From positions 1 through 64,000 of IMG/VR virus record IMGVR_UViG_3300047157_000162: a DNA stretch of 64,000 nucleotides, one strand, 5' to 3'. Shown here in pieces: positions 5,532-49,949 of this stretch. Below the pieces are notes generated by a model. It was given only the letters and a program-made list of their open reading frames with translations, had not been told where the DNA came from and did no database searches. Every line of letters starts with the position of its first letter. Within the stretch, counting starts at the first letter, position 1. A program made the translations under genes and the position numbers. This DNA is from a virus.

Positions 5532-8500
5532 TTAATATGTATTTCTTACTATGTTAACCCATTCGTATGTTGAACTACCTGTTTGCATACACATATCTGC
5601 GTAGCTTGCATCTTCTTCTGTTGCCTCTATTACTGATACGTTGTCTATTGAGCCTGTGAAAGATACACCACCATCAAAATATAATCTATCATCTCCTAAC
5701 GCTTCTATGTACTCTATGTATGTTCCATTAGCACTCCTTATACTGCCTACAGAAACATTCCCACTTCCTAGCTCTATCCTGACAGAACCACTAACGTAGT
5801 TTGATATAGTGTAAACCACCTTGTATATCTTACCTGACACCAATCCCGTATTTATTTGAAAAGCTGTTGAAGTTGTTGAGGAACCGTTAAGAGAACCTCC
5901 GCTAATTGTCCACCCTGCCCCTTTATTCCAATCACTATCAGTTGCAAAATCTCCATTAGTAACTAACTCTTCTCCATCAACCTCTACATACTCTGTATCA
6001 GTTCTATATCTCATTGTACCTACTTTATCTGCTGAAGCTGTATCTGTATCATCACCTATCTTTACTCCCCCATCTACATCTAATTTAGATTTAGGACTAG
6101 TCGTGCCGATACCTACGTTACCGCTTGAAGTAACACGCATTTTTTCTGTAAAAGTTGCGTTACCACTACTACCTGAAGGAGTTGTTCCAAAAGCAACATA
6201 CTGGTCGCTTAAGGTATTTGAAGCTTTTAATTTAATAGCTCCTCCTAATCCTAAATTAACATTGTCAGCTCTTAAAACGCCTTCAATAATAGCGTCTCCT
6301 TCTAAATGCAACTTAGCACTAGGACTAGTCGTCCCGATGCCTACGTTGCCATTTGTAAGAATACGCATTCTTTCACCGTTGCTGTATAACGACAAGCCAG
6401 AGGTATTATTCCCTAAAATTTGTTGATTACCATTGCCCCATTTAATGAATTTAGCGTCTCCTAAACTTACATTACCTGCAAAAGTTGCGGTAGTGTTTGT
6501 TAATATTAATCTATCATCACCTCCTGTTCTGAAGGTCTGTGTATCAGCTGTAAATCTTATATAAGTATTCGTATCTCCACTGTGATAAATATATTCAGGA
6601 ATATAAACATCCCCTGCAAAAGTTGCGTTTTGAGATTCGTCTAATCTTAATGTTTCTGCGTTACCTGAGTATAAAATATTTTTATCTGCCGCAACAATAT
6701 ATAAATCATCACTAATTACATCAATATAATCAGAAGAAGATGTAATCATTAATTTAGTACCAACAGTTACGCTCCCTGCAAAAGTTGTATCATTACCACT
6801 AACTGTTATTGGTGCGTTACCTAAAGTTTCTGAATCTGTAACAGAACCAGCGCCCTCCCATAAAGCTACAGTTTGACCTGTACCTACACCTGACAATACA
6901 GATGAGTTATCAATTTTTTGCCATTGACCTGTGCCACTAACATCGTTGTATATAACCCAGTCACCAGTTTCCCAAGTGTCAGGTTCAGTACCTGTACCGT
7001 TAGGCTCTGCGGTACCAGCAGCGCTACATATATAATAGTAACCAGATGTTTGAGTTACACCGCTTAAATCAGGTGAACCATATCCACCACCACTTGGATC
7101 CCAAGCACCTCTATATATTGTAGCTCCAGTAATTAAACCATCTACATAGCCTTTTGTTGTTAGGGTTGATGATGCGTCTCCAGAAGAGGTTGCTGTTGTT
7201 GCAAACGCTTGATCAGCAAAAGTTCCATTTCCAGCACTATCTAAGTTTAATAGAGTTCCGTTATTGTTTATAAAATCAAAACCTCTAACAGAACTGTTTA
7301 AATTAAATGTTGCTGCTGTAGAATTTGATTCTATTAAAAATGAATTAGTTCCTGAGACTGTTAAACCACCTGATACACTAACGCCCGAACTTTGAGTTTC
7401 AAACTTTTTTAAATCGTTATAATATAAATCAACTGAACCATTTTCTGTGGCTATTATCATGCTTTCTGCACCACCCGCGCTTCTTACTCTAAACTTACTC
7501 GTGTCAATTCTTAAATCTCCTGTTCCTGAATCTTTAATATAACTATCGTTACCATCGTGGTATATTTGTAGGTCATACGATGCACCCAGCAATAATTTTC
7601 CTGTATCTGTATTTATACCTACATTTCCGTTTGCTCCTGTTACAGTAATTGTTCCTGTTGAATCTATTGTTCCTGTGTTTATTGTGCCTCCTGCTGTAGT
7701 TTCAAACTTTTTAGCTCCATAATGATTTAATTCTACTGAGCCCTTAGAGCCATCTATTTGAATATATGTAGCAATACCACCACCACCATTATCACTTTGT
7801 AAAATAATATCTCTGTCCTGAAAATTACTTCTTATGTATAAATCTCCAGTATCATTTTCTATATAAGAATTTAAGCCATTATGGAATATATTAAAATCTC
7901 CTGAACCACCAAACTGTGCTTTTACATTATCATTTAATCTTGTATTTTTATTAAATAAAGTTCTTCCTTCACTACCGTCAATTTGTATATAGTTTTCAAC
8001 CCCGCCAGATCCATTATCTGACATAAAAACTATATCGCCATCGTTTTGGTCGTTTCTAATTTTTAAATCACCTGCTTGATTAAATATCTGCGAATCAGTA
8101 CCATCGTGAAAAATTAATAAATCCTCACTTGTACCTATTTTTAACCTAAAATTATCAGGCATCAAAACACCATTAGTCCCAGTCATTGTACCACCAGCAA
8201 GCGGTAAGTAAGGACCGCCAGCGCCACCGCCACTTGATACTGTGATATTACCAGAAGCATCTGATACTAATGTACCAGCTGTATACGTGTTTAGTTTTAA
8301 TGCTCCCGCCCCACTGAGCTCCATGCGCGTATTACTACCATTTTTCCAAGAGTAGTTGCCATTGTCTCCTGTAAATAAATTTACCGTACCTAGTAGTATA
8401 CTTCCATAAGCACCATTTGTAGTATGAGAAAACTTAGCAACTCCTACGTCTGCATTACCAACAACATCTAGTTTTTTACCAGGAGAGGTCGTCCCGATAC

Positions 8501-11403: not shown

Positions 11404-12261
11404 TTAGTTCATATATGCTTTGCCTGATTCAGCAGAAGCGAAGGTTATTGTTAAATTGTTTTCATCGATGTATACTATATCTCCGTAACCTTTCTGCCCG
11501 GTGGACAAAACCATAGTTACAGAAGGAAATTTATCTAGGTTATGCTGAACAGTCCACGTTGCACTAGCTCCTGCTTGTACAAATGTATATGTTTCGTTCG
11601 CTCTAGCCCAAGAGTTATCTCCTCGTAGGAATTTAGTATTATCAGGCGTACCAGTAGCTGACAATGATGCTGTAATCTCTACGTTACCTGTTTGAGGCGT
11701 CGTAGGTGTCATATCTATAAACTCAGTATCAAGAGCCCTGACACTGTCAACACCTGTAGCACCGAGTTCTAGATAAAAGTTTACAAGAGTATAATAGTGA
11801 TCCATATCTATAGATCCATTACCTCCTAAATATTCTAATGTTAATGTATAAAAGTTAGTTGTACCAATTTGCGTGTACCCTCTCATTATATAATGCCCAA
11901 ATGAGCCTTTACCGGCTACATCTTGAAACAGTACTTGCTCATCTACTAAGTACTCTAAGAAAGGTGAAACAATTTGACCCGACAGGTCCATGTTTGATAT
12001 TACTATAGATGTAATACTTGACCAAGGTGTGTCATCACCGCTTCCGGCTGCAAAAGCAAAAGTACCTGCTTTAAATGAAGGGTCTTGAACAAACTGATAA
12101 TTCATTTGCCCTGCAATTGCCACCTTACCGTTTATATTCAAGTAGTCCGCCACTGCTTTAGCCGTGTATTGCTTAGTCTGTCTATTGACAGAGTCAGTTC
12201 CAACCCAAGCATCTGTATCAGTTATAGTCTGATCGTATGGATATGAATATATTATTGCCAT
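11404..12261 (-). CDS. Tail appendage protein
   Basis: A 285-residue putative virion protein beginning MAIIYSYPYDQTITDTDAWVGTDS, an opening shared by many fibre-region proteins of Bacteroidetes phages. The body is rich in Thr, Asp and aromatic residues with no membrane segment. The C-terminus (ATWTVQHNLDKFPSVTMVLSTGQKGYGDIVYIDENNLTITF) matches a compact beta domain common at the tips of phage fibres. The gene stands three bases from its neighbours on both sides in the minus-strand tail operon. The exact part it plays in the tail is unknown. Confidence 0.7.
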   Translation of the reverse strand: MAIIYSYPYDQTITDTDAWVGTDSVNRQTKQYTAKAVADYLNINGKVAIAGQMNYQFVQDPSFKAGTFAFAAGSGDDTPWSSITSIVISNMDLSGQIVSPFLEYLVDEQVLFQDVAGKGSFGHYIMRGYTQIGTTNFYTLTLEYLGGNGSIDMDHYYTLVNFYLELGATGVDSVRALDTEFIDMTPTTPQTGNVEITASLSATGTPDNTKFLRGDNSWARANETYTFVQAGASATWTVQHNLDKFPSVTMVLSTGQKGYGDIVYIDENNLTITFASAESGKAYMN

Positions 12262-12263
12262 GC

Positions 12264-12530
12264 TTATCTTTTGTTTTGTCTTCTTTCGGCCTTAGTACCG
12301 TCTTTTTTACTCTTATTCTGCGTTCCACCTCTGTTATGAGACGATGTAACACATTTTTTAGTATTATGGTCGTAGTCTTGACCTTTAGGACAGTCTATTC
12401 TTTGGCTTTCTGCTTTCATTTTTCTTCTTCTGTCTGTCATAGCGTATTTAAGGTCTCTTATTGCCTTAGCCTTCGCTGCTGCTGGACTTAATTTTTGCTT
12501 CGGTCCGCCTTTTCTTCTTGGTTTTGCCAT
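12264..12530 (-). CDS. Small highly basic protein, first gene of the left operon
   Basis: An 88-residue protein dominated by Lys and Arg, opening MAKPRRKGGPKQKLSPAAAKAKAIRDLKYA and closing KSKKDGTKAERRQNKR, with a short Cys-containing centre (IDCPKGQDYDHNTKKCV). No enzyme motif is seen. It is the promoter-proximal gene of the leftward tail operon. Similar small basic Cys proteins occur at 31451 and 60225, so this phage carries a set of them, possibly packaged with DNA. Function is unknown. Confidence 0.6.
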   Translation of the reverse strand: MAKPRRKGGPKQKLSPAAAKAKAIRDLKYAMTDRRRKMKAESQRIDCPKGQDYDHNTKKCVTSSHNRGGTQNKSKKDGTKAERRQNKR

Positions 12531-12609
12531 AATACCGTTTTAGTATACTCTATATACTTACTCGAAAACGCTTATTTTTACAAATTTAGCAGCATATACT
12601 TATATAGTG

Positions 12610-12651
12610 TGACAATAGCCTATTACTATCTAATATAACTAGCTAATGTCA
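12610..12651 (+). repeat. 42-bp imperfect inverted-repeat element, copy A
   Basis: Starts TGACAATAGCC and ends AGCTAATGTCA. The two arms pair except for one A·A mismatch and an unpaired inner base. Just inside the left arm is TATTACTATC, shared with the other two copies (13383-13425, and the reverse complement of 20010-20051). It lies in the divergent control region about 200 bases upstream of promoter motif 1. It is not followed by a T-run, so it does not look like an intrinsic terminator. Confidence 0.7.
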
Positions 12652-12849
12652 TAGTATCGATTTAAAAAGTTATTACAAATATAGGGCAAAGGTATTGCGC
12701 CTTGTCCAAACGGTGTACGCATTTTTCCCTTTTACGTTTTCAAAAGCCGGGGCCCCCCTTTTTTTTCAGAATCACGCGAATTTTTTCGATTTTTTACGTA
12801 CGTTTTACCGTAGAGGTTTTGACTTTATATTTTATGTATACTATTTTTA

Positions 12850-12883
12850 ATCAAACTTTATACAGAGATATTTAGATAATATA
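12850..12883 (+). promoter_or_regulatory. Phage promoter-like motif, copy 1
   Basis: ATCAAA at 12850-12855, TAC at 12861-12863, nine bases, then TAGATAATATA at 12873-12883. The spacing between the first hexamer and TAGATA is 17 bases, as in all ten copies. It drives rightward transcription toward the 77-aa gene at 12941 through an A/T-rich leader. This copy deviates from the others only in the first base of the upstream hexamer block. Confidence 0.7.
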
Positions 12884-12940
12884 TTTGTTATTAAAACTTA
12901 TAATAATTCAAACTAATATTAACTTAAATAATAAATAATT

Positions 12941-13174
12941 ATGTCAACAATGAAAAGTAAAAGATTCGTAGTAAGAAAGTCGTTAATCGGTAAGAACCAA
13001 GTAATAGAAGTTACTTTCAAAAATGGGAAAGACTCGCCAAGTATAATCATGATCGACGCCTTCGAGTGTATGAAAGAGAAACTTGAAAAAATGAACTGTT
13101 GGGAGAAGTACAAGAGTTACACAAGTAGTACAAGTATTCCAGTGAGTGTTAGATCTGTGTTAATCACAGACTAA
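12941..13174 (+). CDS. Small conserved protein, paralogue 1
   Basis: A 77-residue protein of unknown function, clearly paralogous to the gene at 13632: both share KSKRFVVRKSLIGKNQ, IEVTFK and CWEKYKSYTSSTS. No catalytic motif or membrane segment is seen; the sequence is basic with alternating hydrophobics and is likely a compact alpha/beta fold. The two paralogues differ heavily at silent positions, so the duplication is not recent or has been maintained under selection. It is the first gene of the early region, where host-takeover proteins are usually found; that role is inference only. Confidence 0.7.
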   Translation: MSTMKSKRFVVRKSLIGKNQVIEVTFKNGKDSPSIIMIDAFECMKEKLEKMNCWEKYKSYTSSTSIPVSVRSVLITD

Positions 13175-13178
13175 TACT

Positions 13179-13212
13179 TACAAATTGAGTACAAACTGAA
13201 TTAGATAATATA
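13179..13212 (+). promoter_or_regulatory. Phage promoter-like motif, copy 2
   Basis: TACAAA at 13179-13184, TAC at 13190-13192, nine bases, then TAGATAATATA at 13202-13212. It starts a few bases after the stop codon of the 12941 gene and points at the small gene starting at 13227. Confidence 0.75.
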
Positions 13213-13226
13213 ATAAATTAATAATT

Positions 13227-13376
13227 ATGCAAATTTCTTTTAAAATTGATCAAGACAATGATCTTTATGAATTGACAGTGGACAATAAAGTATATACAAT
13301 CTATAATGTGTATGATACAAAACAAACTGGAAAACTGTGGGATGATCTCAATATGTTGATTGATGAGCATCTGTAA
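13227..13376 (+). CDS. Small hypothetical protein (49 aa)
   Basis: A short acidic protein, MQISFKIDQDNDLYELTVDN at the N-terminus and ending LNMLIDEHL. No recognised family. It is supported as real by its own promoter-like motif 15 bases upstream, by the A/T-rich leader ending TAATTATG that other genes here share, and by codon use like its neighbours. Repeat element copy B starts seven bases after its stop codon. Confidence 0.6.
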   Translation: MQISFKIDQDNDLYELTVDNKVYTIYNVYDTKQTGKLWDDLNMLIDEHL

Positions 13377-13382
13377 AAACTA

Positions 13383-13425
13383 TGACAATAGCCTGTTACT
13401 ATCTTAACCTAATAGGCTAATGTCA
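13383..13425 (+). repeat. 43-bp imperfect inverted-repeat element, copy B
   Basis: Starts TGACAATAGCC and ends GGCTAATGTCA. The 11-base arms pair at ten positions with one A·A mismatch, and the inner left flank reads TGTTACTATC. Same orientation as copy A. It lies directly downstream of the 13227 gene and upstream of promoter motif 3, which precedes the second 77-aa paralogue. An RNA hairpin with an 11-bp stem could form, but no T-run follows the right arm immediately. Confidence 0.75.
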
Positions 13426-13563
13426 CACTTTTCTTGGCCTGATCCTGAAATAAGATCGGAAGAGTAGACTCCGTCCTACGCGACAGTTAAGTAAAACCCC
13501 CTCACCCCCTAAAAGTGTATAGCACTTTGTATAGCACCTCACTCCCCCGCCGTAGAGCACTTG
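13426..13563 (+). other. Non-coding spacer between element B and promoter motif 3
   Basis: No gene of useful length is visible. The stretch is unusually C-rich for this genome (runs of C near 13497-13516 and 13541-13550) and has two close copies of TATAGCAC at about 13520-13540. Together with element B and motif 3 it makes a gap of about 255 bases in an otherwise tightly packed region. Confidence 0.4.
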
Positions 13564-13597
13564 TACAAACTTTATACATTTCATTTCAGATAATATA
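13564..13597 (+). promoter_or_regulatory. Phage promoter-like motif, copy 3
   Basis: TACAAA at 13564-13569, TAC at 13575-13577, nine bases, then CAGATAATATA at 13587-13597. The leader that follows (ATATTAACTTAAATAAATAA) resembles the leader of the first paralogue, so promoter, leader and gene were duplicated together. Confidence 0.75.
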
Positions 13598-13631
13598 CAT
13601 GAAAATAAATATTAACTTAAATAAATAAATT

Positions 13632-13865
13632 ATGTCGCAAGTATTAAAAAGTAAAAGATTCGTAGTAAGAAAATCACTTATTGGTAAAAATCAAATCATT
13701 GAAGTAACATTCAAAAGTGGTAAAGTTGCAAAGTACAATCACGATCAAGTGTTCGAAGTAATGAAGAACAAATTAGAAGCAATGGCGTGCTGGGAAAAGT
13801 ATAAATCCTACACTTCAAGCACTTCAATGCCTGTAATAACAAGAGAACTACTTATAACTGAGTAG
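13632..13865 (+). CDS. Small conserved protein, paralogue 2
   Basis: A 77-residue paralogue of the 12941 gene. Shared blocks are KSKRFVVRKSLIGKNQ, IEVTFKxGK and CWEKYKSYTSSTS. They diverge mainly in the middle, where this copy has KVAKYNHDQVFEVMKNKLEAM. No family or function is recognised. Two maintained copies with separate promoters suggest either dosage or divergence of target. The gene is followed by a structured non-coding segment at 13878-13935. Confidence 0.7.
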   Translation: MSQVLKSKRFVVRKSLIGKNQIIEVTFKSGKVAKYNHDQVFEVMKNKLEAMACWEKYKSYTSSTSMPVITRELLITE

Positions 13866-13877
13866 TATCTTGTACAG

Positions 13878-13935
13878 AGAGGTGTAGTATAAAACTTCCC
13901 ATACTATTTCATGGAGTAAATAATAGTACACCTCT
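13878..13935 (+). ncRNA. Predicted structured RNA segment
   Basis: AGAGGTGTA (13878-13886) is perfectly complementary to TACACCTCT (13927-13935). Inside, GTAT/ATAC (13887-13890 with 13901-13904) and the partly competing TACTAT/ATAGTA (13903-13908 with 13923-13928) can form smaller hairpins, giving a branched structure of about 58 nt. It lies between a stop codon and promoter motif 4 and contains no plausible gene. It may be a 3'-UTR element, processing site or small RNA. Only complementarity is seen; expression is unknown. Confidence 0.4.
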
Positions 13936-13945
13936 AAAATCAAGT

Positions 13946-13979
13946 TTCAAAACTAATACAAGTCACTATAGATAATATC
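13946..13979 (+). promoter_or_regulatory. Phage promoter-like motif, copy 4
   Basis: TTCAAA at 13946-13951, TAC at 13957-13959, nine bases, then TAGATAATATC at 13969-13979. It precedes the chain of three small genes 14017-14496. Confidence 0.75.
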
Positions 13980-14016
13980 TATGTAACAATTAATAACTAT
14001 AATAAAAAGTAATACT

Positions 14017-14151
14017 ATGCAAGTAACATTAACATGCGATAATGGTAAAATAATAGATCTAACTAGCGATATCTTAGATCAAATGGAAGGTAAAGTAACT
14101 AGAAAAGACGTTCTTAACAGAATAGAATTTTATAAAGAAACAAACAGATGA
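14017..14151 (+). CDS. Small hypothetical protein (44 aa)
   Basis: MQVTLTCDNGKIIDLTSDIL at the N-terminus, ending VLNRIEFYKETNR. No family recognised. It begins after promoter-like motif 4 with an A-rich leader, and its stop overlaps the start of the next gene (ATGA), as expected of a translated chain. Confidence 0.55.
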   Translation: MQVTLTCDNGKIIDLTSDILDQMEGKVTRKDVLNRIEFYKETNR

Positions 14152-14246
14152 GAAGTTTAAATAAAAGAGTGTTGTTAACACTAGAGAAAGTAAACAGAGT
14201 ATTAACCGAGCTAGGTAGCGCTGCCGCCTTCGCGATAAGAAATTAA
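14148..14246 (+). CDS. Very small hypothetical protein (32 aa)
   Basis: A 32-residue basic amphipathic peptide (MRSLNKRVLLTLEKVNRVLT, then ELGSAAAFAIRN). It starts in a four-base overlap with the preceding gene and ends one base before the next start. Function is unknown; only position and coupling support it. Confidence 0.45.
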   Translation: MRSLNKRVLLTLEKVNRVLTELGSAAAFAIRN

Positions 14247-14247
14247 T

Positions 14248-14496
14248 ATGGAATATAAAGGATATACTTACGAGAAAATACAAGTAGAAAACTGGAAGGG
14301 TGAGATCAATACTATGTATCTATGTAGCGATAATGATCTACTACAACATGTGAAAACAAGTAGTTTTACTAAATTAACTTTGCAGAGAATGAAAGACGAG
14401 ATCGATTACTTAGTCGAGAACGCTAATCACCACGTAGAGCTTAATAAATTAGAGTACGAAGCAACTAAACACTTCTTACAATATAAATACGATTAA
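14248..14496 (+). CDS. Small hypothetical protein (82 aa)
   Basis: Begins MEYKGYTYEKIQVENWKGEIN and continues with a helical C-terminal half rich in Glu, Asn and His. The start fits the chain of the previous two genes. No motif or family is recognised. The gene is followed immediately by promoter motif 5, part of which overlaps its last codons. Confidence 0.65.
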   Translation: MEYKGYTYEKIQVENWKGEINTMYLCSDNDLLQHVKTSSFTKLTLQRMKDEIDYLVENANHHVELNKLEYEATKHFLQYKYD

Positions 14497-14510
14497 AGCG
14501 AGATAATATT
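14477..14510 (+). promoter_or_regulatory. Phage promoter-like motif, copy 5
   Basis: TACAAT at 14477-14482, TAC at 14488-14490, nine bases, then GAGATAATATT at 14500-14510. The upstream half lies inside the end of the 14248 gene, so the motif is kept even at the cost of coding constraint. Confidence 0.7.
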
Positions 14511-14531
14511 AATGTAAATAAATAATAAACT

Positions 14532-14744
14532 ATGCAGAATACTATTAAATTTTTCAAAGACAAAAAGAATCAAGCGCCAATGGCGAGACTAAACGATGTA
14601 ACTTACAAAGGTTATTTAATCGGTGAACTACCAAGTAAGTTTGCCTTCATGTACGATCAAGAACAAGAAAAAGAGGGTGTTATCGAGTGGTTTAACCACG
14701 AAGGTTTAACTTATATAGAAAAGTCTAATAATCCGTGGGCGTAA
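14532..14744 (+). CDS. Small hypothetical protein (70 aa)
   Basis: Starts MQNTIKFFKDKKNQAPMARL and contains DVTYKGYLIGELPSKFAFMYD. It looks like a compact alpha/beta protein. No family is recognised. It is the first gene behind promoter motif 5 and heads a run of four genes to 15348. Confidence 0.65.
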   Translation: MQNTIKFFKDKKNQAPMARLNDVTYKGYLIGELPSKFAFMYDQEQEKEGVIEWFNHEGLTYIEKSNNPWA

Positions 14745-14745
14745 T

Positions 14746-14925
14746 ATGAGTTTATTCCACTGGTCAGAAGAAACTATAAGTCACTTCGAATTTATGAGTA
14801 GTTACTTAAGTAAAGAGCAAACTATAGACAAAATAAAGCAATTTGTAGTAGTTGACTGTGTTCCTGCAGAAGAGGAAACTGAAGAAATGTTAGTAGAAGA
14901 TTTAATTAATATAATATACAAGTAG
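14746..14925 (+). CDS. Small acidic hypothetical protein (59 aa)
   Basis: MSLFHWSEETISHFEFMSSY followed by a Glu-rich C-terminal half (VPAEEETEEMLVEDLINIIY). It starts one base after the previous stop and ends one base before the next start. Function unknown; acidity and position fit an early host-interaction protein, without direct evidence. Confidence 0.55.
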   Translation: MSLFHWSEETISHFEFMSSYLSKEQTIDKIKQFVVVDCVPAEEETEEMLVEDLINIIYK

Positions 14926-14926
14926 T

Positions 14927-15109
14927 ATGAAGCTGACAAAGAATGAAATAAAGGGAATAGCGTATCAACTAGATGAAGTAATAAGTAATAACTTTCATAA
15001 CACTATATATAATACTGTATGGGAAAGAGAAATGCACTCTGACGAAGACATAGAAGTAGACGACGAAGATATATTAGCAATTAAACAAGAATTAAAAAGA
15101 ATACTATGA
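14927..15109 (+). CDS. Small acidic hypothetical protein (60 aa)
   Basis: MKLTKNEIKGIAYQLDEVIS then a strongly acidic segment EREMHSDEDIEVDDEDILAI and a terminal helix. No family recognised. The stop overlaps the start of the next gene by four bases (ATGA), showing coupling. Confidence 0.6.
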   Translation: MKLTKNEIKGIAYQLDEVISNNFHNTIYNTVWEREMHSDEDIEVDDEDILAIKQELKRIL

Positions 15110-15348
15110 TGACAATGAAAGAAATGTGTGCATACGTAGATCAGAAAAGAAAAGCTGATGCTATACACCATCGTAAAACTGTGACTAAAGGTGAATTTTG
15201 TAAACCTTTCACTGAAAAAGAGCACAAAATGGTGAAAACAAAGTCTAAAGGAGCGGGATCTAAAGGCAGGAAACACGCTCATACCAAGTTGTGGACTTAC
15301 CATAACTCAGGAGTGTCGTTCAAAACTAATACGAAAAAAGTAAGATAA
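15106..15348 (+). CDS. Small basic hypothetical protein (80 aa)
   Basis: MMTMKEMCAYVDQKRKADAI at the N-terminus and a very basic C-terminal half with KSKGAGSKGRKHAHTKLWTY. It may bind nucleic acid by charge, but no domain is recognised. Several in-frame ATG codons near the beginning leave the exact start open (15106, 15109 or 15115). Promoter motif 6 overlaps its last codons. Confidence 0.6.
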   Translation: MMTMKEMCAYVDQKRKADAIHHRKTVTKGEFCKPFTEKEHKMVKTKSKGAGSKGRKHAHTKLWTYHNSGVSFKTNTKKVR

Positions 15349-15352
15349 TATA
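15319..15352 (+). promoter_or_regulatory. Phage promoter-like motif, copy 6
   Basis: TTCAAA at 15319-15324, TAC at 15330-15332, nine bases, then AAGATAATATA at 15342-15352. It lies mostly inside the end of the 15106 gene and immediately precedes the small gene at 15356. Confidence 0.7.
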
Positions 15353-15355
15353 TAC

Positions 15356-15484
15356 ATGAAATCAACAGCAGATATATTACAAGAGCTATCAATGTACGCT
15401 AACCTCAACTATGAGGACGATTGGTATTTAAAAGATAAAATTAACGAGTTAAAAACTAGAATATATGAGCAAACAAATAGTTAA
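15356..15484 (+). CDS. Small hypothetical protein (42 aa)
   Basis: MKSTADILQELSMYANLNYE, continuing DDWYLKDKINELKTRIYEQTNS. The first ATG is only a few bases downstream of the promoter-like box, so the transcript could be nearly leaderless or translation could begin at the internal Met-13. Helical and acidic, no family recognised. It overlaps the next gene by 20 bases. Confidence 0.45.
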   Translation: MKSTADILQELSMYANLNYEDDWYLKDKINELKTRIYEQTNS

Positions 15485-15590
15485 AAGTCCATGGGATTTA
15501 GCCTATGAAGAGTATAAAGATGTATACAGCAGAGCAGAGATAGATGATATGCTTTTCTGTGAAATAGATGAACTAATAAATCAAGAATAG
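15465..15590 (+). CDS. Small acidic hypothetical protein (41 aa)
   Basis: MSKQIVKSPWDLAYEEYKDV then YSRAEIDDMLFCEIDELINQE. The KSPWD phrase recurs at the start of the 25231 gene (KKKSPWDMGDY), a chance match or a shared short motif. Starts inside the end of the 15356 gene; the next gene follows after two bases. Function unknown. Confidence 0.5.
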   Translation: MSKQIVKSPWDLAYEEYKDVYSRAEIDDMLFCEIDELINQE

Positions 15591-15592
15591 AA

Positions 15593-15787
15593 ATGAGTAT
15601 AACAAAGCAAATAGACGAAATAGCAGAAAGAATAGCTGAAATTACACTGCAACTAATAGAAGACAGTGTTGATTGGCAAATAGCGGATCAAGATTTAGAC
15701 GGTGATGAGTACAGTGAACTACATGACTACGTTGTTAGTGAGTCGATAGAAAAACTTTACAAAAACAATACGATTAACTCTAGATAA
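15593..15787 (+). CDS. Small acidic hypothetical protein (64 aa)
   Basis: MSITKQIDEIAERIAEITLQ followed by an acidic helical segment (SVDWQIADQDLDGDEYSEL) and a terminal ISRxx-like tail. Predominantly helical and possibly a small coiled coil. No family is recognised. Promoter motif 7 overlaps its 3' end. Confidence 0.6.
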   Translation: MSITKQIDEIAERIAEITLQLIEDSVDWQIADQDLDGDEYSELHDYVVSESIEKLYKNNTINSR

Positions 15788-15791
15788 TATA
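15758..15791 (+). promoter_or_regulatory. Phage promoter-like motif, copy 7
   Basis: TACAAA at 15758-15763, TAC at 15769-15771, nine bases, then TAGATAATATA at 15781-15791. Precedes the zinc-finger gene at 15815; the upstream half is inside the previous coding sequence. Confidence 0.75.
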
Positions 15792-15814
15792 TATGTAACA
15801 AAAAATAATAAACT

Positions 15815-16003
15815 ATGTACTGTAAATGCGGCGACGAGGTCCACCCTTACCGATTAAACTTAGGATATAAGACATGTCCACCCTGTTCTGAAGTAAAAAA
15901 ACATTCTTATGTTCCAATTACTTACCATAAAACAGGTAATACAATTCAAATAGTAAGTCAAGAGCTAAGTGCACTTGTACATAAATCACAAAGACGAAGA
16001 TAA
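15815..16003 (+). CDS. Small zinc-finger protein, DksA/TraR-like
   Basis: A 62-residue protein whose first half is a C4 finger: CKCG at residues 3-6, then HPYRLNLGYKTCPPCSE. The CxCG...RL...GYKTCPPC spacing resembles the TraR/DksA-type zinc finger, a family whose members bind RNA polymerase or act in translation and stress control. It lacks the long coiled coil of full DksA, so a regulatory peptide is more likely than a full DksA homologue. It sits behind promoter motif 7 with the 16005 gene directly after. Confidence 0.6.
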   Translation: MYCKCGDEVHPYRLNLGYKTCPPCSEVKKHSYVPITYHKTGNTIQIVSQELSALVHKSQRRR

Positions 16004-16004
16004 T

Positions 16005-16457
16005 ATGAATACACTAACACAATGGCAAGCTCGCCGAAAAGAGCTAGAAGACAAGTATGTAGAGTTAATGCTTGCTAAGTACCCACTACTAACTGATGTA
16101 ACTACAAATACACAACGTGAAAATGGTACTAGAACGTTCCAACTTAACCACAAAAAGTATGGTTTATGTAAATTTGCTACATACAAATCAGGTATGGTGC
16201 GTAAAATAATAAGAACTAGATTTAAAGATTTATCTTGCTATCAACTAAATCCTCAAAGATCAATAACTAATTATTATATGACACTTGGTGACAATAGCGA
16301 GTTAAATATGAGCTCTTATGTAGGTAAACAAAGAGTAAAAATAACTAACGGCCTTGCTAGATTAGTGTATCTAGAAAAATACTTAATAAAAAACTACGAC
16401 TTAGACTCAGTGCAAGACGTAATCGAGGTTGATGGTGTATTGTATAAAAGAATATAA
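16005..16457 (+). CDS. Hypothetical protein (150 aa)
   Basis: The preferred start is the ATG at 16005 (MNTLTQWQARRKELEDKYVE), two bases after the previous gene; an in-frame ATG at 15969 would overlap the finger gene by 35 bases. The protein is basic with a helical N-terminus and a beta-rich remainder including NHKKYGLCKFATYKSGMVRK. No family is recognised. The non-coding RNA-like region follows. Confidence 0.65.
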   Translation: MNTLTQWQARRKELEDKYVELMLAKYPLLTDVTTNTQRENGTRTFQLNHKKYGLCKFATYKSGMVRKIIRTRFKDLSCYQLNPQRSITNYYMTLGDNSELNMSSYVGKQRVKITNGLARLVYLEKYLIKNYDLDSVQDVIEVDGVLYKRI

Positions 16458-16720
16458 ACACGGTGGAGGGCTTAGTACGGCTACGGTATTTTAAGTAGTT
16501 AAGCTAACGAAGATCCTCTAATGTGTTTATTAGTCAGCGAATAAATAACGACCGCGACAAAGTGTGGGGAATGTCTGGCGAATAGTAGAGTTTTACGGTA
16601 TATAGCTCTCTCTAAATAAGAAAACCGACAACTAGGTCAGGCAAAACATTTACAAGTGCACTTGTTAGTGTGTATGGGCTACCGACGGGTATGAGGTTCG
16701 AATCCTCACTAGTTACAAAT
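16458..16720 (+). ncRNA. Non-coding, apparently structured region with a tRNA-like 3' end
   Basis: About 260 bases without a credible gene, just upstream of the tRNA. Near the beginning AACAC and GGAGG can pair with CCTCT and GTGTT about 60 bases on. Near the end, TGAGG-TTCGAAT-CCTCA (16692-16708) is a textbook tRNA T-arm, and AACTAG (16630-16635) pairs with CTAGTT (16709-16714) as an acceptor-like stem. The 57 bases between them do not fold into normal D and anticodon arms that I can recognise; a perfect palindrome ACAAGTGCACTTGT sits there. It could be a class II, intron-containing or degraded tRNA, or a different tRNA-like RNA. Confidence 0.4.
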
Positions 16721-16793
16721 GGCGCGGTGGAGAAGTTGGTTATCTCGCGAGTCTCATAAACTCGAGGTCGAAGGTTCGAATCCTTCCTGCGCA
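16721..16793 (+). tRNA. tRNA-Met or Ile2 (anticodon CAT)
   Basis: A cloverleaf can be drawn: acceptor strands 16721-16727 and 16787-16793 (with one G·A at the end and one G·U), a D-arm containing AGTTGGT, anticodon stem CGAGT/ACTCG around loop CTCATAA, and T-arm GAAGG-TTCGAAT-CCTTC. The CAT anticodon means elongator Met, initiator Met or, if modified to lysidine, Ile for AUA codons. The anticodon stem lacks the three G:C pairs of initiators. AUA is frequent in these genes, so an Ile2 role is attractive but unproven. CCA is not encoded. Confidence 0.85.
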
Positions 16794-16814
16794 CCTAATT
16801 TAAAATTAAATAAA

Positions 16815-17018
16815 ATGAGTAAAACTAAATTTAATGGATTTGAAAAGTATTTCATCCAAACAGCGTTAAACCACGCTATCAAACAAGCTGAAGAAGATGT
16901 TAAAGAACTAATAAGCGAAGGTAAAAGACCTCTCTATTCAGAAGGTTACTTTACTATGGTAGGTAATGAAATATTAGATAAAGTAAATAGTATGACACTT
17001 AAAAAATACCAAGATTAG
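16815..17018 (+). CDS. Small hypothetical protein (67 aa)
   Basis: MSKTKFNGFEKYFIQTALNH, largely helical and ending VNSMTLKKYQD. The start at 16815 is chosen because upstream in-frame codons lie inside the tRNA. No family recognised. It is expressed either with the tRNA or from an unrecognised signal, since the next promoter-like motif lies downstream. Confidence 0.6.
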   Translation: MSKTKFNGFEKYFIQTALNHAIKQAEEDVKELISEGKRPLYSEGYFTMVGNEILDKVNSMTLKKYQD

Positions 17019-17019
17019 T

Positions 17020-17053
17020 TACAAATTTAATACGATACACTACAGATAATATA
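17020..17053 (+). promoter_or_regulatory. Phage promoter-like motif, copy 8
   Basis: TACAAA at 17020-17025, TAC at 17031-17033, nine bases, then CAGATAATATA at 17043-17053. Precedes the gene at 17077 and the chain of tiny genes behind it. Confidence 0.75.
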
Positions 17054-17076
17054 TATGAATTTAAAATAACAATAGC

Positions 17077-17310
17077 ATGAGCAATTTACTACAATCAATT
17101 AAACCCAAGTACATCAAACTTATTAAACAAAGTGACTACAAGTTTACTTCGTCAAGAATTATTGCTAAACTAGAAAGCAGCAAGTGGTATGGTGAGCTAA
17201 CTATACAAGAGATCAGAGATATATATGACATGTGTAGTATCAACGCGTTAAGAGTATCAGCGTGGGACTACAGATTCGGCGATAACATTTTAATAGACGG
17301 CGATGACTAA
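17077..17310 (+). CDS. Small hypothetical protein (77 aa)
   Basis: MSNLLQSIKPKYIKLIKQSD with a central ASSKWYGELTIQEIRDIYDM-like segment (LESSKWYGELT) and acidic end ILIDGDD. Alpha-helical by appearance, no family recognised. The stop overlaps the start of the next small gene. Confidence 0.6.
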   Translation: MSNLLQSIKPKYIKLIKQSDYKFTSSRIIAKLESSKWYGELTIQEIRDIYDMCSINALRVSAWDYRFGDNILIDGDD

Positions 17311-17434
17311 GCAAGAATTACAACAACGAGCAAGCGACAAAGCTTTCGCTAGAATGTCTATGCTCTTGATTACAATCGAGCAAAACAAAGAAGATATACG
17401 TACAGGTAACTACGGAGGTGTTACATCACACTGA
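17303..17434 (+). CDS. Very small hypothetical protein (43 aa)
   Basis: MTKQELQQRASDKAFARMSM then LLITIEQNKEDIRTGNYGGVTSH. It overlaps the end of the preceding gene by eight bases. Support is limited to coupling, amino-acid composition and lack of an alternative gene in the interval. Confidence 0.45.
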   Translation: MTKQELQQRASDKAFARMSMLLITIEQNKEDIRTGNYGGVTSH

Positions 17435-17435
17435 G

Positions 17436-17519
17436 ATGGATATAGTATTAAATAGTAATAAAACAGAATTAAAGGTGTGGCAATACATCGCTAAATTAAT
17501 AGAAACAGATGAAGAATAA
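17436..17519 (+). CDS. Possible very small peptide (27 aa)
   Basis: MDIVLNSNKTELKVWQYIAK followed by LIETDEE. It begins one base after the previous stop and overlaps the next start. Too short for family recognition; it is listed because the chain of tight starts and stops continues through it. Confidence 0.35.
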   Translation: MDIVLNSNKTELKVWQYIAKLIETDEE

Positions 17520-17631
17520 ATATATAACCGACGAGTTAATAACTCAGAGAATGTCCGAGAAAGGTTGGATCGAAGGATGTGACGACGAGCATGCTAGAAA
17601 CCAAGTACTTGCACACTATGAATGTGAATAA
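17509..17631 (+). CDS. Very small hypothetical protein (40 aa)
   Basis: MKNKYITDELITQRMSEKGW followed by IEGCDDEHARNQVLAHYECE. Acidic with two Cys residues. It overlaps the previous tiny gene by 11 bases. The composition looks coding, but no homologous family is recognised. Confidence 0.45.
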   Translation: MKNKYITDELITQRMSEKGWIEGCDDEHARNQVLAHYECE

Positions 17632-17741
17632 CTGATCAATGGCGAAACCCAGACTTCAGTGTATACGAAGAGTCAACTGCTGACGGCTACTCTGTATGGA
17701 TAGCTGCCGCTGATACAACTCGTATAAACGTAAACGAAGAT

Positions 17742-18167
17742 GTGTACTACTATGAAAACGAACTTACAGACGCGTTATACGAAGTAATACCTGACTACAA
17801 TCAGATATACTGTGACAACTATGACTTTGTTGAAGATGCTATCACTAGACACTACGAAGATCTATTATGTAAAATGGAAGACGAAATTATAGATGAGTTA
17901 CTTAATGAAGGTTATAACCATAAAATAGTTAACCCTATAAACACGCTACAATATATAGAAATGATCTCTCAAGATTGTAGTTTTTTAGACGGTAGCTCAA
18001 GAGCTATAAATCTAACAGTAGATGAAGACTATAGGTATTTAAACTATGCTAGTCAAATAATTAAAGACAGAGCCAGGTATGAGATTGTAGCTAATCATTA
18101 TGGTCTAACTATCGAAAGAGCTGTTAAAGGTGAATTAATATTTAAAGAATTAAAAAATGAAAACTAA
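17742..18167 (+). CDS. Acidic hypothetical protein (141 aa or longer)
   Basis: The listed start is GTG at 17742 (GTG TAC TAC TAT). The same frame stays open upstream to about 17633 and reads well there (NPDFSVYEESTADGYSVW, then IAAADTTRINVNEDV), so the true protein probably begins near 17635 at a start lost to an indel or at an unusual codon; an ATG at 17640 exists one frame away. The protein is strongly acidic and Tyr-rich with long helices. No family is recognised. It overlaps the next gene by 11 bases. Confidence 0.6.
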   Translation: MYYYENELTDALYEVIPDYNQIYCDNYDFVEDAITRHYEDLLCKMEDEIIDELLNEGYNHKIVNPINTLQYIEMISQDCSFLDGSSRAINLTVDEDYRYLNYASQIIKDRARYEIVANHYGLTIERAVKGELIFKELKNEN

Positions 18168-18420
18168 AAAACAAACAGTACCTAAATGGTTTAAAGGAAC
18201 CATATATGGTGAAGGTGAAACAGTAACCAATCCGTTCAGTGGCGAATGCTATACACTCAACAGCCTCGAGCTCTCAATGTACGATTATATTATGGGTAGC
18301 CAATATATATTTGAAGTAGCACCTAAAACTGTTACACCTAAACAAGTCAGTGAGTTTCAAAAAGCGTTAAACTGGTTTCGTAAAAATAATACAGAAGCAT
18401 ACTTCGTGTTGCTTGATTAA
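18157..18420 (+). CDS. Small hypothetical protein (87 aa)
   Basis: Starts MKTKKQTVPKWFKGTIYGEG and contains NPFSGECYTLNSLELSMYDY. The overlap with the preceding gene fixes the start. It resembles small conserved phage proteins with a beta N-terminus and a helical end (QVSEFQKALNWFRKNN), but the family is not known to me. Promoter motif 9 begins one base after the stop codon. Confidence 0.65.
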   Translation: MKTKKQTVPKWFKGTIYGEGETVTNPFSGECYTLNSLELSMYDYIMGSQYIFEVAPKTVTPKQVSEFQKALNWFRKNNTEAYFVLLD

Positions 18421-18454
18421 TACAAACTAAATACGATCGCTAATAGATAATATA
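18421..18454 (+). promoter_or_regulatory. Phage promoter-like motif, copy 9
   Basis: TACAAA at 18421-18426, TAC at 18432-18434, nine bases, then TAGATAATATA at 18444-18454. This is the closest copy to the consensus and stands just before the GP88-family gene. Confidence 0.8.
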
Positions 18455-18464
18455 ATAAAAAATT

Positions 18465-19070
18465 ATGAACTTATTAACACAAAATTCTAAACTAAAAAAA
18501 ACATCAAAAGAACTCGGGTTCCGGGTCTTTAACTTCGGTATTCCTGCCTACAAATCTGCTAGCGGGAAACTGACGTGCCCAATGGCTGACAGTTGTGTTA
18601 AATTCTGTTATGCCAAGAAAGGAGCCTACATCTGGAGTAACGTAAAACCTGCGTTTGAAAAGCGTTATCAACTCAGCAAGACTGACATGTTTGTTGATGC
18701 TATGAACGCTGAAATACGTAAGAAGAAACCTGATTACGTCAGAGTCCATGATAGCGGCGATTATTATTCTCGCGCATATCTAAAAAAGTGGATCGACATT
18801 GCTAATAGCAATCCTAACGTACGGTTTTACAGTTACACCAACATGATTGATATGATGTTAAAAACCTCATTACCAAGTAATTACGATATAATATTCAGTG
18901 ACTCTGGAAAACAAAAACATTTAATAGATGAGACAAAGCATAGACACACTAAAATTTTCTCAAGCCATGCTGATCTTGATAGGGCTTCGTATACTGATGC
19001 CAGCTCTATTGATTTAATGGCTACTAAGTGGTTTAATAACACTAATAAAGTAGGTTTAGTATTTCACTAG
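18465..19070 (+). CDS. GP88-family phage protein
   Basis: A 201-residue protein with the pattern of the phage gene product 88 family: LTQNSKLKKTSKELGFRVFN, then the conserved block LTCPMADSCVKFCYAKKGAY with three Cys, then YVRVHDSGDYYSRAYLKKW. The family is widespread in phages and plasmids; its biochemical role is unknown, though the Cys cluster suggests metal binding. The length is close to usual for the family. It has its own promoter-like motif ten bases upstream and another directly after the stop. Confidence 0.75.
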   Translation: MNLLTQNSKLKKTSKELGFRVFNFGIPAYKSASGKLTCPMADSCVKFCYAKKGAYIWSNVKPAFEKRYQLSKTDMFVDAMNAEIRKKKPDYVRVHDSGDYYSRAYLKKWIDIANSNPNVRFYSYTNMIDMMLKTSLPSNYDIIFSDSGKQKHLIDETKHRHTKIFSSHADLDRASYTDASSIDLMATKWFNNTNKVGLVFH

Positions 19071-19104
19071 TACAAACTAAATACAATTAACTATAGATAA
19101 TATA
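19071..19104 (+). promoter_or_regulatory. Phage promoter-like motif, copy 10
   Basis: TACAAA at 19071-19076, TAC at 19082-19084, nine bases, then TAGATAATATA at 19094-19104. It is the last copy seen and heads the repair, regulator and sigma genes. A seven-codon ATG frame (19121-19144) lies between it and the 19144 gene. Confidence 0.75.
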
Positions 19105-19143
19105 ATAAACAAAAAACTTATGAACACATTTAAAAAGCAATAA

Positions 19144-19425
19144 ATGACAGAAAAAGATATTACTAAAATAGCCGAACTAGCAGCTAAAATTATTATAGAT
19201 CACTTAGAAGCAAAGCAAGACGAATGGAATCAAGACTTTCAAATATCAATGGAGAATATTAAACAAGACGGCTTTGGTAATATGCGTATGATGTCTGAGC
19301 AAGAAATAATACACATGCAGATAGACGAATTACAGCAAGAATTAGACAAAGCTGTTGAAGATCAAAACTTCACGTTAGCTAGTAAAATAAATAGCAAAAT
19401 AATAGATTTAAAAGCAAAATTATGA
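19144..19425 (+). CDS. Small protein with a UVR-like motif
   Basis: A 93-residue helical protein. Its C-terminal 35 residues (MQIDELQQELDKAVEDQNFT then LASKINSKIIDLKAKL) match the layout of the UVR motif of UvrB and UvrC: paired helices with L...L..A....(F)..A..(I)...I..L. In bacteria this motif lets UvrB and UvrC dock. Its stop overlaps the start of the next gene, which looks like a pyrimidine-dimer excision protein, so a DNA-repair role is plausible. The short length makes the match tentative. Confidence 0.55.
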   Translation: MTEKDITKIAELAAKIIIDHLEAKQDEWNQDFQISMENIKQDGFGNMRMMSEQEIIHMQIDELQQELDKAVEDQNFTLASKINSKIIDLKAKL

Positions 19426-19907
19426 ATATATTTTATTTAAATTCTGATCCTAAAAAAGCTGCAGTCATACAATATAACAAGCACGTCGTAAAGATGATCT
19501 TAGAATCAGCCCAGATGCTCTGTACGGCACATCATCATTATGCCGAACTTAATTATCCGATGGTTAAAGTGCCTTATAAGAAAGCGCATTACAATCATCC
19601 GTCTACTATATGGTGTAGACAAAACGCAAAGCAATACATGTGGTTGTATAATCATATGATAGCACTAGGCGAAGAGTATACTAAAAGATATAATAAAATA
19701 CACTTAACAATAACTAAATGCAAAGAACCTTTAAAACAATTACCATTAGGAATACCGGACAATACTTTTACAGAACCACCACAATGTATGCCAGAAGAGT
19801 ACAAAGTACAAGGTGACAGTGTATCAGCATACTGGAATTATTATGAAAACGAAAAACACACTGTAAAAAGCGCAAGCGAACAAATAATAACTAGAAATAA
19901 TGGGTAG
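19422..19907 (+). CDS. Pyrimidine-dimer glycosylase-like protein
   Basis: A 161-residue protein in a family common in marine phages. Visible marks are MNIFYLNSDPKKAAVIQYNK, HVVKMILESAQML, TAHHHY, a KKAHYNHPSTIWCRQ block and LGEEYTKRYNKIH. This HVVKM...ESAQ...NHP...W pattern is usually assigned to the pyrimidine dimer DNA glycosylase (T4 endonuclease V-like) superfamily, though biochemistry for this branch is lacking to my knowledge. It starts in a four-base overlap with the UVR-motif gene. Role inferred: repair or processing of phage DNA. Confidence 0.55.
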   Translation: MNIFYLNSDPKKAAVIQYNKHVVKMILESAQMLCTAHHHYAELNYPMVKVPYKKAHYNHPSTIWCRQNAKQYMWLYNHMIALGEEYTKRYNKIHLTITKCKEPLKQLPLGIPDNTFTEPPQCMPEEYKVQGDSVSAYWNYYENEKHTVKSASEQIITRNNG

Positions 19908-20046
19908 AACTAAACAATTATTCGAGGAAATGAGGCTAGAACAAAAAGATTTTTTTAATGAAAAAAATATAATATACCAAACATTAGGTTATTGTGAAAG
20001 TGTAGACTGTGACAATAGGCCTTTAGATATAATAGTAACTGGCTAA
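19900..20046 (+). CDS. Small hypothetical protein (48 aa)
   Basis: MGRTKQLFEEMRLEQKDFFN followed by EKNIIYQTLGYCESVDCDNR and PLDIIVTG. Starts in an overlap with the previous gene and ends in TAATG, the ATG being the start of the HTH gene at 20046. Its last 12 codons lie inside repeat element copy C, so the element is tolerated within coding sequence. Function unknown. Confidence 0.55.
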   Translation: MGRTKQLFEEMRLEQKDFFNEKNIIYQTLGYCESVDCDNRPLDIIVTG

Positions 20047-20051
20047 TGTCA
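20010..20051 (-). repeat. 42-bp imperfect inverted-repeat element, copy C (reverse orientation)
   Basis: On the plus strand it starts TGACAATAGGC and ends GGCTAATGTCA. Its reverse complement aligns with copies A and B along the whole length, including AGTTACTAT inside the arm, so this copy is inverted relative to A and B. It spans the end of the 19900 gene and supplies the start codon of the 20046 gene (TAATGTCA). Confidence 0.7.
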
Positions 20052-20666
20052 TACAATAGAAAATTAGACTTTTTTAATAAGCATCGTATTATATATAGAA
20101 GAGATCCCATTAATGATATTCCAACAGAGGTATATGATTGGGGTAGTTACTATGAGAACGGTACAAACGAATGCTATACATTGTTCCGCAGTAAGGCTAA
20201 AATAAATACTTATAAAAGCTTGAAGTGGCACATGCTAGTTATATGGTACTTAAACCCTCAATTAACTCACGATAAATTCTCTGATATATGTATTTTCATA
20301 TGTAACAAGATAAATGGCTTTGTAACATTTGAAATAAGTAGTTGGCATTTTGAGCAAATGGTATACGATGTTTTGATGTCTGATCTTGAACAACCACCTA
20401 AAAATAAATCACGTAAAATTATATTTAAAGAATACACAGGATTAACATTAAGTGAAAAAATGAAAATAGTAGGTAAATTAGTAGGTAGATCATCTGTAAT
20501 AGATGAAGAATCAATATATCAATGCATGCTAGATCTTCACGACGATGGTAATAAAATAACAATAACTAGAATAGCAGGTCTATTAGATTGCTCTGCTAGA
20601 ACTATATATAGAAATATGGGTAATGAATTAAAAAAAGAAAAAGAATTATTAAATCAGCAATTATGA
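20046..20666 (+). CDS. HTH-containing putative transcription regulator
   Basis: A 206-residue protein with a basic N-terminus (MSYNRKLDFFNKHRIIYRRD), a hydrophobic/aromatic middle, and a C-terminal helix-turn-helix around residues 165-200: ITITRIAGLLDCSARTIYRN. The order of A, G and hydrophobic residues fits a resolvase- or sigma-type HTH. It is chained between two tiny genes, 94 bases upstream of the sigma-factor gene, so it likely works in the same control circuit. DNA target unknown. Confidence 0.65.
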   Translation: MSYNRKLDFFNKHRIIYRRDPINDIPTEVYDWGSYYENGTNECYTLFRSKAKINTYKSLKWHMLVIWYLNPQLTHDKFSDICIFICNKINGFVTFEISSWHFEQMVYDVLMSDLEQPPKNKSRKIIFKEYTGLTLSEKMKIVGKLVGRSSVIDEESIYQCMLDLHDDGNKITITRIAGLLDCSARTIYRNMGNELKKEKELLNQQL

Positions 20667-20773
20667 GACAAAACTTTAATGAGTGGATGGCTAGTATAGG
20701 TAATATATACTATGCAAACGATAACTTAATGGCAAAAGCATTTGAAAAAATAGATCAATATGAAGAAATATAA
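20663..20773 (+). CDS. Very small hypothetical protein (36 aa)
   Basis: MRQNFNEWMASIGNIYYAND followed by NLMAKAFEKIDQYEEI. Its start overlaps the stop of the HTH gene (ATGA) and its end overlaps the sigma gene start by 14 bases, so it is likely translated as part of the chain. Function unknown. Confidence 0.5.
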   Translation: MRQNFNEWMASIGNIYYANDNLMAKAFEKIDQYEEI

Positions 20774-21527: not shown

Positions 21528-21600
21528 GTTAGGTGATAAAACTAACGTAAAAAAATACGTATATATGTAATTATAATAATAACTAAAACAATTAAAGCCT

Positions 21601-49863: not shown

Positions 49864-49949
49864 AATATAATATAATAAAATTTTTAATAAGAGTAATAAT
49901 TACCCCTGTCAGTTCAACAAGGGTAACTACTACATTAATTTAATCGGTA

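Follow-up and report, generated by a model that had tools for sequence, protein, structure and literature searches.

We examined a 64,000-nucleotide stretch of viral DNA (the window), positions 1 to 64,000 of the IMG/VR record IMGVR_UViG_3300047157_000162 (G000; 129,537 bases), which is probably from a marine phage with a Bacteroidota host. Between positions 12,610 and 13,865, the order near-palindrome, promoter-like motif, leader and gene for a 77-amino-acid (77-aa) protein of one family (family G) occurs twice. The near-palindrome, designated element E, recurs in the window at the start of a gene encoding a protein with a putative helix-turn-helix (HTH) domain, and it recurs in related phages. 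The repeat is more than a local duplication, its two units containing two members of a phage-wide set of likely control sites. The best-supported explanation, towards which the balance of the sequence evidence tips, is that E is a putative operator read by the HTH protein.

The HTH gene (20046-20666, plus strand, 206 aa) starts within the third window copy of the element, E-C (20010-20051, plus strand), whose right arm, GGCTAATGTCA, includes the ATG of the gene (GGCTA ATG TCA). Homologs were found in 40 rows representing 31 distinct gene copies, of which 19 were on contigs fetched via E patterns and 2 were in G000. All 31 had E at the start, and 30 were in one register (for L181, when the aligned start is used); the E of L175 is 16 bp upstream of the start and has lost the ATG. 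A less biased set is provided by the 11 records that were fetched via the 77-aa protein; 10 of these carried the HTH gene, and E was at its start in all 10. A regulator gene that begins within a conserved palindrome, with further copies at some other transcription units of that genome, is what an autoregulator with its operators usually looks like.

The two other window copies, E-A (12610-12651, plus strand, 42 bp, TGACAATAGCC...GCTAATGTCA; approximately 12603-12657 with its symmetric A/T-rich flanks) and E-B (13383-13425, plus strand, 43 bp; approximately 13376-13432 with flanks), have both arms in common, as determined by repeat search. The left-arm pattern, with up to 3 mismatches allowed, matched the window 5 times against 0.48 expected, and none of 100 shuffles reached 5. 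A sequence model of E gave three window sites scoring on both strands (12603, 13376 and 20004) and one far weaker partial match at 16288 (E-value, 0.029). Relatives were collected by scanning with the 77-aa protein, which yielded 39 viral loci, and with E DNA, which yielded 92 contigs. The examined set comprised G000 and 24 further records, 11 fetched via the 77-aa protein and 13 via E. The E pattern was present in 24 of these 25 records and its reversed control in none. Sequence model R2 of E gave 75 sites in the 25 records among the matches listed (strands were merged by hand, and weak rows such as G006:5983 were omitted). Twenty-five of these sites were at the start of the HTH gene, 24 of them overlapping its ATG, while 34 preceded a family gene by no more than 2.5 kb, 12 followed one by no more than 1 kb, and 4 were elsewhere. 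One of these 4, G009:27105, lies between a capsid-like gene and the next gene; G006:39838 is nearly the same in sequence, and the remaining two (in G013 and G021) are near contig ends. Conversely, E was found within 2.5 kb upstream of 33 of the 35 family genes in the same table. In G012, the family matches are broken by frame changes (5843-6116 and 69534-69807); the two places may be overlapping ends of one permuted assembly, in which case the site and gene counts each fall by one.

The loci fetched via the 77-aa protein gave a similar picture. E was present within 1 kb upstream of 47 of 51 family genes, compared with a mean of 0.1 in 20 base shuffles and 0 of 51 for the reversed motif, a result that speaks in part for the interpretation given in the first-pass annotation of the window. 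Downstream, E was within 1 kb in 17 of 36 cases, and it was found in 2 of 37 stretches taken 2 to 3 kb upstream. A scan of genome contigs from bacteria and archaea, using only the DNA pattern of E, returned 8 hits, 7 of them in metagenome-assembled genomes (MAGs) whose titles name Bacteroidota groups and the eighth in an Aliivibrio MAG. Two of these were at the start of an HTH gene, three were upstream of a family gene (the Aliivibrio contig among them), one was near the end of the stretch examined (R2 E-value, 5e-16), and the remaining two are probably due to chance. Since 5 of the 8 hits came from contigs that also contain the HTH gene or a family gene, E was rejected as a general host element. 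Literature searches aimed at E or its phages returned nothing relevant, the listed matches to E words being unrelated by title.

The consensus of E, including its flank, is AAAAGTGTGACANTAGC. In 122 distinct elements (selected with at most 3 mismatches in total to the 10-base arms), the outer arm ends are 41 to 44 bp apart and arm bases 2 to 4 and 9 are invariant; the centre is not conserved. Covariation between the arms (alignment A4) was 0.076 versus 0.115 in shuffled alignments, with 498 of 500 shuffles at least as high. E was found in either orientation relative to genes. In some relatives, E follows the capsid gene and precedes the late gene after it (L052:10684, L074:6840 and L154:1501), the L052 and L074 copies pointing in opposite directions; no E is present at the corresponding place in the window (49864-49950). 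Because the arms do not covary, either orientation is used, and the element is inverted between L052 and L074, E fits better as a DNA site with two half-sites than as an RNA stem. The symmetry is broken at arm position 6. In 45 of 56 rows beside protein-fetched family genes, a less biased set in which some sites are counted for two genes, this position was A in both the left and the right arm, and it formed a Watson-Crick pair in only 8 of the 109 distinct elements that could be oriented.

These observations are consistent with a scheme in which a DNA operator used throughout these phages is present in two copies as E-A and E-B. The HTH protein would bind E as a dimer or higher oligomer, repressing its own gene at E-C. 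At E-A and E-B it would control the transcription units that start there, including the two small genes, which would be read from phage promoters, and the 77-aa genes would be paralogs whose cassettes of promoter and gene are acquired, lost and exchanged next to copies of the operator. If so, what appeared to be a local duplication becomes a testable regulon for uncultivated marine phages, with a candidate regulator, a well-defined DNA site and a family of small genes that turn over and yet retain their place next to E. If the HTH protein does bind E, sites in many metagenomic genomes would gain a function in a single step. A more elaborate proposal, which we consider unlikely to hold in full, is that the protein recognises a near-palindrome of 58 bp in which one position is consistently kept asymmetric, and that it may sense the polarity of the site or an extruded hairpin. 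The resulting phage-wide circuit of uncultivated Bacteroidota phages would act at the regulator's own start codon, at exchangeable small-gene cassettes next to an RNA-like motif (M2, described below), and, in some phages, within the operon of the capsid gene.

Several observations weigh against the operator reading. The HTH protein matched Pfam HTH_23 and HTH_7 below the cut-off. Its structural model, which is confident with a predicted local distance difference test (pLDDT) score of 87, does favour the reading in that the C-terminal residues 148 to 205 resemble the HTH domains of DtxR, IdeR, TetR and sigma factors with VIA Z scores of about 5 to 6; the Z scores are nevertheless under 8, and there was no Foldseek match at an E-value of 0.001. 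E-C lies inside an operon and not at a recognised promoter. The asymmetry at position 6 (101 of 109 elements are not palindromic there) would not be expected of a simple site for a symmetric dimer. E lies 93 to 1,728 bp from the family gene, unlike an operator that overlaps a promoter. Model R2, which matched in 25 of 25 records, was built partly from sites that it later found. Finally, some family genes have no E where it would be anticipated. The two exceptions in the R2 table, among the matches listed, are one gene in G015 and one near a contig end in G013, and E is missing within 1 kb upstream of both genes of L022 and the gene of L041. It was also not found before copy 1 of L039, for which 433 bp of upstream sequence was covered. 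Searches of PHROGs, NCBIfam and PADLOC gave no match for the HTH protein, and its profile matched solved structures only at E-values of 0.036 or worse.

We considered three other explanations of E. The binder of the element could instead be the 77-aa protein itself, a factor of the host, or a protein of replication or segregation, the HTH and 77-aa genes being mere neighbours. E adjoins 77-aa genes nearly everywhere, and 2 to 4 loosely spaced sites per genome would suit a chromosome-organising site equally well. However, only at the HTH gene is E in a fixed register (30 of 31 copies); the 77-aa gene stands at a variable distance from it, and the 77-aa protein has no match to a DNA-binding family. 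We regard another binder as unlikely, though less so than the two explanations that follow. If E were a site of recombination for the exchange of small gene cassettes, similar to integron attC, this would account for the variable gene content between two E sites and for an imperfect palindrome with a conserved mismatch and polarity, and the stretch containing gene 13227 is indeed present or absent immediately upstream of E-B. In the pairs compared, however, the breakpoints lie in promoter repeats (L013 versus L015) or a few bases outside E, and none lies inside it. The centre of E is not conserved, and E is at the HTH start in all 31 copies. No recombinase linked to E was seen among the ORFs (open reading frames) scanned, and when 21 of the 30 window ORFs that reach 180 aa were scanned against PHROGs, their matches included no integrase. 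Recombination at E itself is thus very unlikely. The same low probability attaches to E acting as RNA, either as a bidirectional terminator or as a hairpin controlling translation over the start codon. Such a role would explain the symmetric A-run and T-run flanks around the stem and the start codon in the right arm at the HTH gene. Against this, the arms vary without compensation, at a level below the shuffled expectation on which an RNA stem was rejected, and four bases of each arm do not vary at all in the 122 elements. Orientation to genes is not fixed either, and some 20 nucleotides separate the arms. An intrinsic terminator was also rejected, as a scan of positions 12500 to 14200 (loops of 3 to 8 only) reported none at E.

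The first-pass annotation had interpreted the window pair as a whole control-plus-gene cassette that was copied and kept. Its description of the region was borne out by repeat search and ORF analysis, which identified E, a promoter-like motif, a leader and a 77-aa gene twice and in the same order, with one small gene in between. In the first unit, E-A is followed by promoter-like motif 1 (12852-12886, plus strand, CAAACTTTATAC ... AGATAATATATTTG), a leader (12915-12940, plus strand, AATATTAACTTAAATAATAAATAATT) and copy 1 of the 77-aa gene (12941-13174, plus strand). Between E-A and the promoter, a GC-rich stretch and then a T run (12746-12768, strand unassigned) were noted by eye and were not reported by the terminator scan. 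A small promoter-like motif and a 49-aa ORF (13181-13376, plus strand, the ORF being 13227-13376) separate the units. In the second, E-B is directly followed by M2 (13431-13487, plus strand), and then by promoter-like motif 2 (13565-13599, plus strand, ACAAACTTTATAC ... AGATAATATACATG), a leader (13608-13631, plus strand, AATATTAACTTAAATAAATAAATT) and copy 2 of the gene (13632-13865, plus strand). Both promoter-like motifs were found by repeat search, the repeat starting at 12852 and 13566, as was the leader sequence AATATTAACTTAAATAA, which is repeated at 12915 and 13608. E, promoter, leader and gene were reported as separate repeats, and nothing is shared between E and the promoter; this stretch contains M2 in the second unit and none in the first, and the distances from E-A and E-B to GATAATAT are 224 and 164 bp, respectively. 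GATAATAT promoter-like sites occur 11 times on the plus strand from 12875 to 19096, which makes the promoter a feature of the early region and not one specific to the cassette.

The two 77-aa proteins are identical at 52 of 76 aligned residues and their genes are alike at 139 of 228 bases; 48 of the 89 differences are at third codon positions. The annotation had noted that the proteins are mostly alike and that many silent sites differ, and this was confirmed. When nonsynonymous and synonymous divergence were compared, the nonsynonymous rate (dN) was 0.34 (0.27 without codons 29 to 40) and the synonymous rate (dS) was undefined by the NG86 method owing to saturation. The same pair in the close contig L012 has 57 of 76 residues identical, and dS was again undefined. 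Between the window and L012, copy 2 shows 5 silent differences and no amino acid change, and copy 1 has a dN of 0.08 and a dS of 0.15 with a divergent patch included. The patch, at about codons 31 to 40 of gene 12941, is a compensated shift (+2 and +1 bases) that L012 does not have, so that part of the amino acid difference is local; it could be either real or an assembly error. Saturated silent sites indicate that the pair is old, or that the copies were joined from different sources or acquired separately.

Profile searches found family G in 24 of the 25 records. Fourteen have a single copy, seven have two (G001, G002, G004, G005, G010, G017 and G018), and G000 has three, of which two lie in the first half and the third in the second half. 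One of the two family matches in G015 is broken by frame changes (65893-66093), and G021 has no family gene and has one of its E sites at the contig end. The order E-gene-E-gene of the window was found in 7 of the 25 records (the first half of G000, G001, G002, G004, G005, G010 and G017), and the order E-gene-gene-E was found in G018. In nine related genomes (the second half of G000, G003, G007, G016, G019, G020, G022, G023 and G024), E flanks a single family gene on both sides, and a tie between E and the second gene copy was rejected on this basis. The locus in the second half of G000 (L008:2827-4301) has a single, longer family gene (112 aa) between its two elements and other small ORFs after the second. 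Gain and loss of genes at regulatory repeats were seen. The second family gene of L013 is missing in L015, with the break within a promoter repeat, and gene 13227 is present or absent together with its promoter; the extra 188 bp of the window relative to L012 (13186-13373) corresponds to the 49-aa ORF and a promoter-like motif and stops a few bases short of E-B. Window gene 13632 is 87% identical to the first family gene of L013 and 69% identical to the second, and the position of E-B followed by M2 is kept in both the window and L013. Since this gene is nearest to L013 copy 1 while E-B and M2 stay in place, the genes must have been re-sorted relative to the elements. A tree of 94 family rows contains several separate paralog pairs and many unresolved forks.

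Copying of one cassette is therefore only partly supported. Tandem duplication of a single block of element, promoter, leader and gene, with both copies diverging under purifying selection, would explain the identical order of the parts in both units, the seven records with E-gene-E-gene order, and the paralog pairs in several lineages of the tree. Against such a block, the stretches between E and the promoter are unrelated in the two units, nine genomes have E on both sides of a lone gene, window copy 2 is nearest to L013 copy 1, and silent sites are saturated. Moreover, E is also found where the HTH gene starts and, in certain relatives, behind the capsid gene, and the gene tree leans against the pairing of copies 1 and 2 within genomes, although many of its forks are unresolved. 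Family genes lying in unrelated places behind different upstream elements were not seen in the relatives; 4 of the 51 genes are without E in the upstream DNA covered. We consider a single-block duplication improbable, and the best explanation of the window pair is that it is old or re-sorted and not a recent copy of one block.

The 77-aa protein matched nothing above noise in Pfam, PHROGs, NCBIfam or PADLOC, and its profile matched solved structures only at E-values of 0.1 or worse. Its predicted structure (pLDDT, 89) had no Foldseek match at an E-value of 0.001, the best VIA Z score being 3.6; weak matches of such a model are no evidence of a new fold. In the GenBank phage collection, neither the 77-aa protein nor the HTH protein had a tblastn match, and window positions 12300 to 14000 had no blastn match.

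M2, which lies between E-B and promoter 2, is a motif of about 50 bases of the form GCCTG-stem-CGGAAGAGTAGACTCCG-YCCTAC and is a candidate new RNA family, as judged from sequence comparison. We found 39 distinct copies and aligned 38. Covariation was 0.225 versus 0.123 in shuffled alignments, none of 500 shuffles being as high; the structure that was scored came from this alignment itself. Both partners had changed in two of the pairs, in 25 cells (0 of 500 shuffles), although the number of such pairs alone was not unusual (322 of 500). Thirteen M2 sites were found in 11 of the 25 records, 11 of them within 100 bp of an E, and in phages of the L067, L069 and L079 type M2 directly follows GATAATA. 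The only terminator-like site reported in the scan above is inside M2, on the minus strand (13473-13457). No Rfam family matched the window M2 copy or the three loci searched; window positions 12000 to 21600 gave only tRNA, and L079, L069 and L045 gave one chance-level match. Twelve M2 bases resemble the start of a common sequencing adapter; because relatives vary at these bases, M2 is not an artefact.

Turning to the remainder of the record, a phage sigma-70-like factor gene (20760-21527, plus strand) follows E-C and the HTH gene, and a tRNA-Met (cat) gene lies in the early region (16721-16795). The late genes of the window include PHROG matches to portal, terminase, GroEL and GroES, and a Pfam P22_portal match was obtained in the relative L052. 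The major capsid-like gene (49950-51421, minus strand) is broken by a frame change near 50900, noted by eye, and is in one frame in L052 and L074. G000 looks like two related phage genomes of about 62 to 65 kb each, end to end. Terminase recurs (window 55005-57215 and G000:118485-120691) with 97 to 99% identity in two pieces, and between the halves the HTH protein is 59% identical and the 77-aa family gene about 50% identical. Two strains that have their late genes in common and differ in their early regions were probably assembled together in G000.

Relatives of the terminase were found in 87 records, including Elemovirus (Flavobacterium elemo phages), Cellulophaga podoviruses and MW202828. 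Among the matches listed, identity was 64.7% for MW202828 and 45.4% in 14 other rows; the hosts, where given, are Flavobacterium, Cellulophaga, Tenacibaculum and Maribacter. The Elemovirus and Cellulophaga podoviruses thus resemble the window phage in terminase and differ in having no match to the 77-aa or HTH protein. Neither MW202828 (searched in full) nor MT497017 (42,142 of 61,691 bases) contained E at an E-value of 0.1 or M2.

E has features in common with several known systems. Like integron attC, it is an imperfect palindrome with a conserved mismatch that lies beside variable small genes; unlike attC, its breakpoints are outside the element, its conserved arms differ, and no integrase was seen among the scanned ORFs. 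In T4-type phages, small early genes each carry a repeated regulatory unit, the promoter-early stem-loop (PeSL), and genes are gained and lost at these repeats. The PeSLs are the subject of Arbiol et al. 2010 and Comeau et al. 2014, as cited in PMC4503421. The phages studied here are similar in that small early genes have a repeated regulatory unit and that gain and loss meet at repeats. A stem-loop and an early promoter forming one composite unit were not found, however; the palindrome is upstream of and apart from the promoter, with variable lengths between, and E, which behaves as DNA and not like a stem-loop, is linked to a single regulator gene. Lambda-type phages have an autoregulated repressor with several operators, which is likewise an HTH protein whose gene, together with a few further units of the genome, carries a conserved site. 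E differs from that arrangement in its size, the site being about 58 bp with arms of near 18 bp, in overlapping the start codon in a fixed register, and in keeping one arm position non-palindromic.

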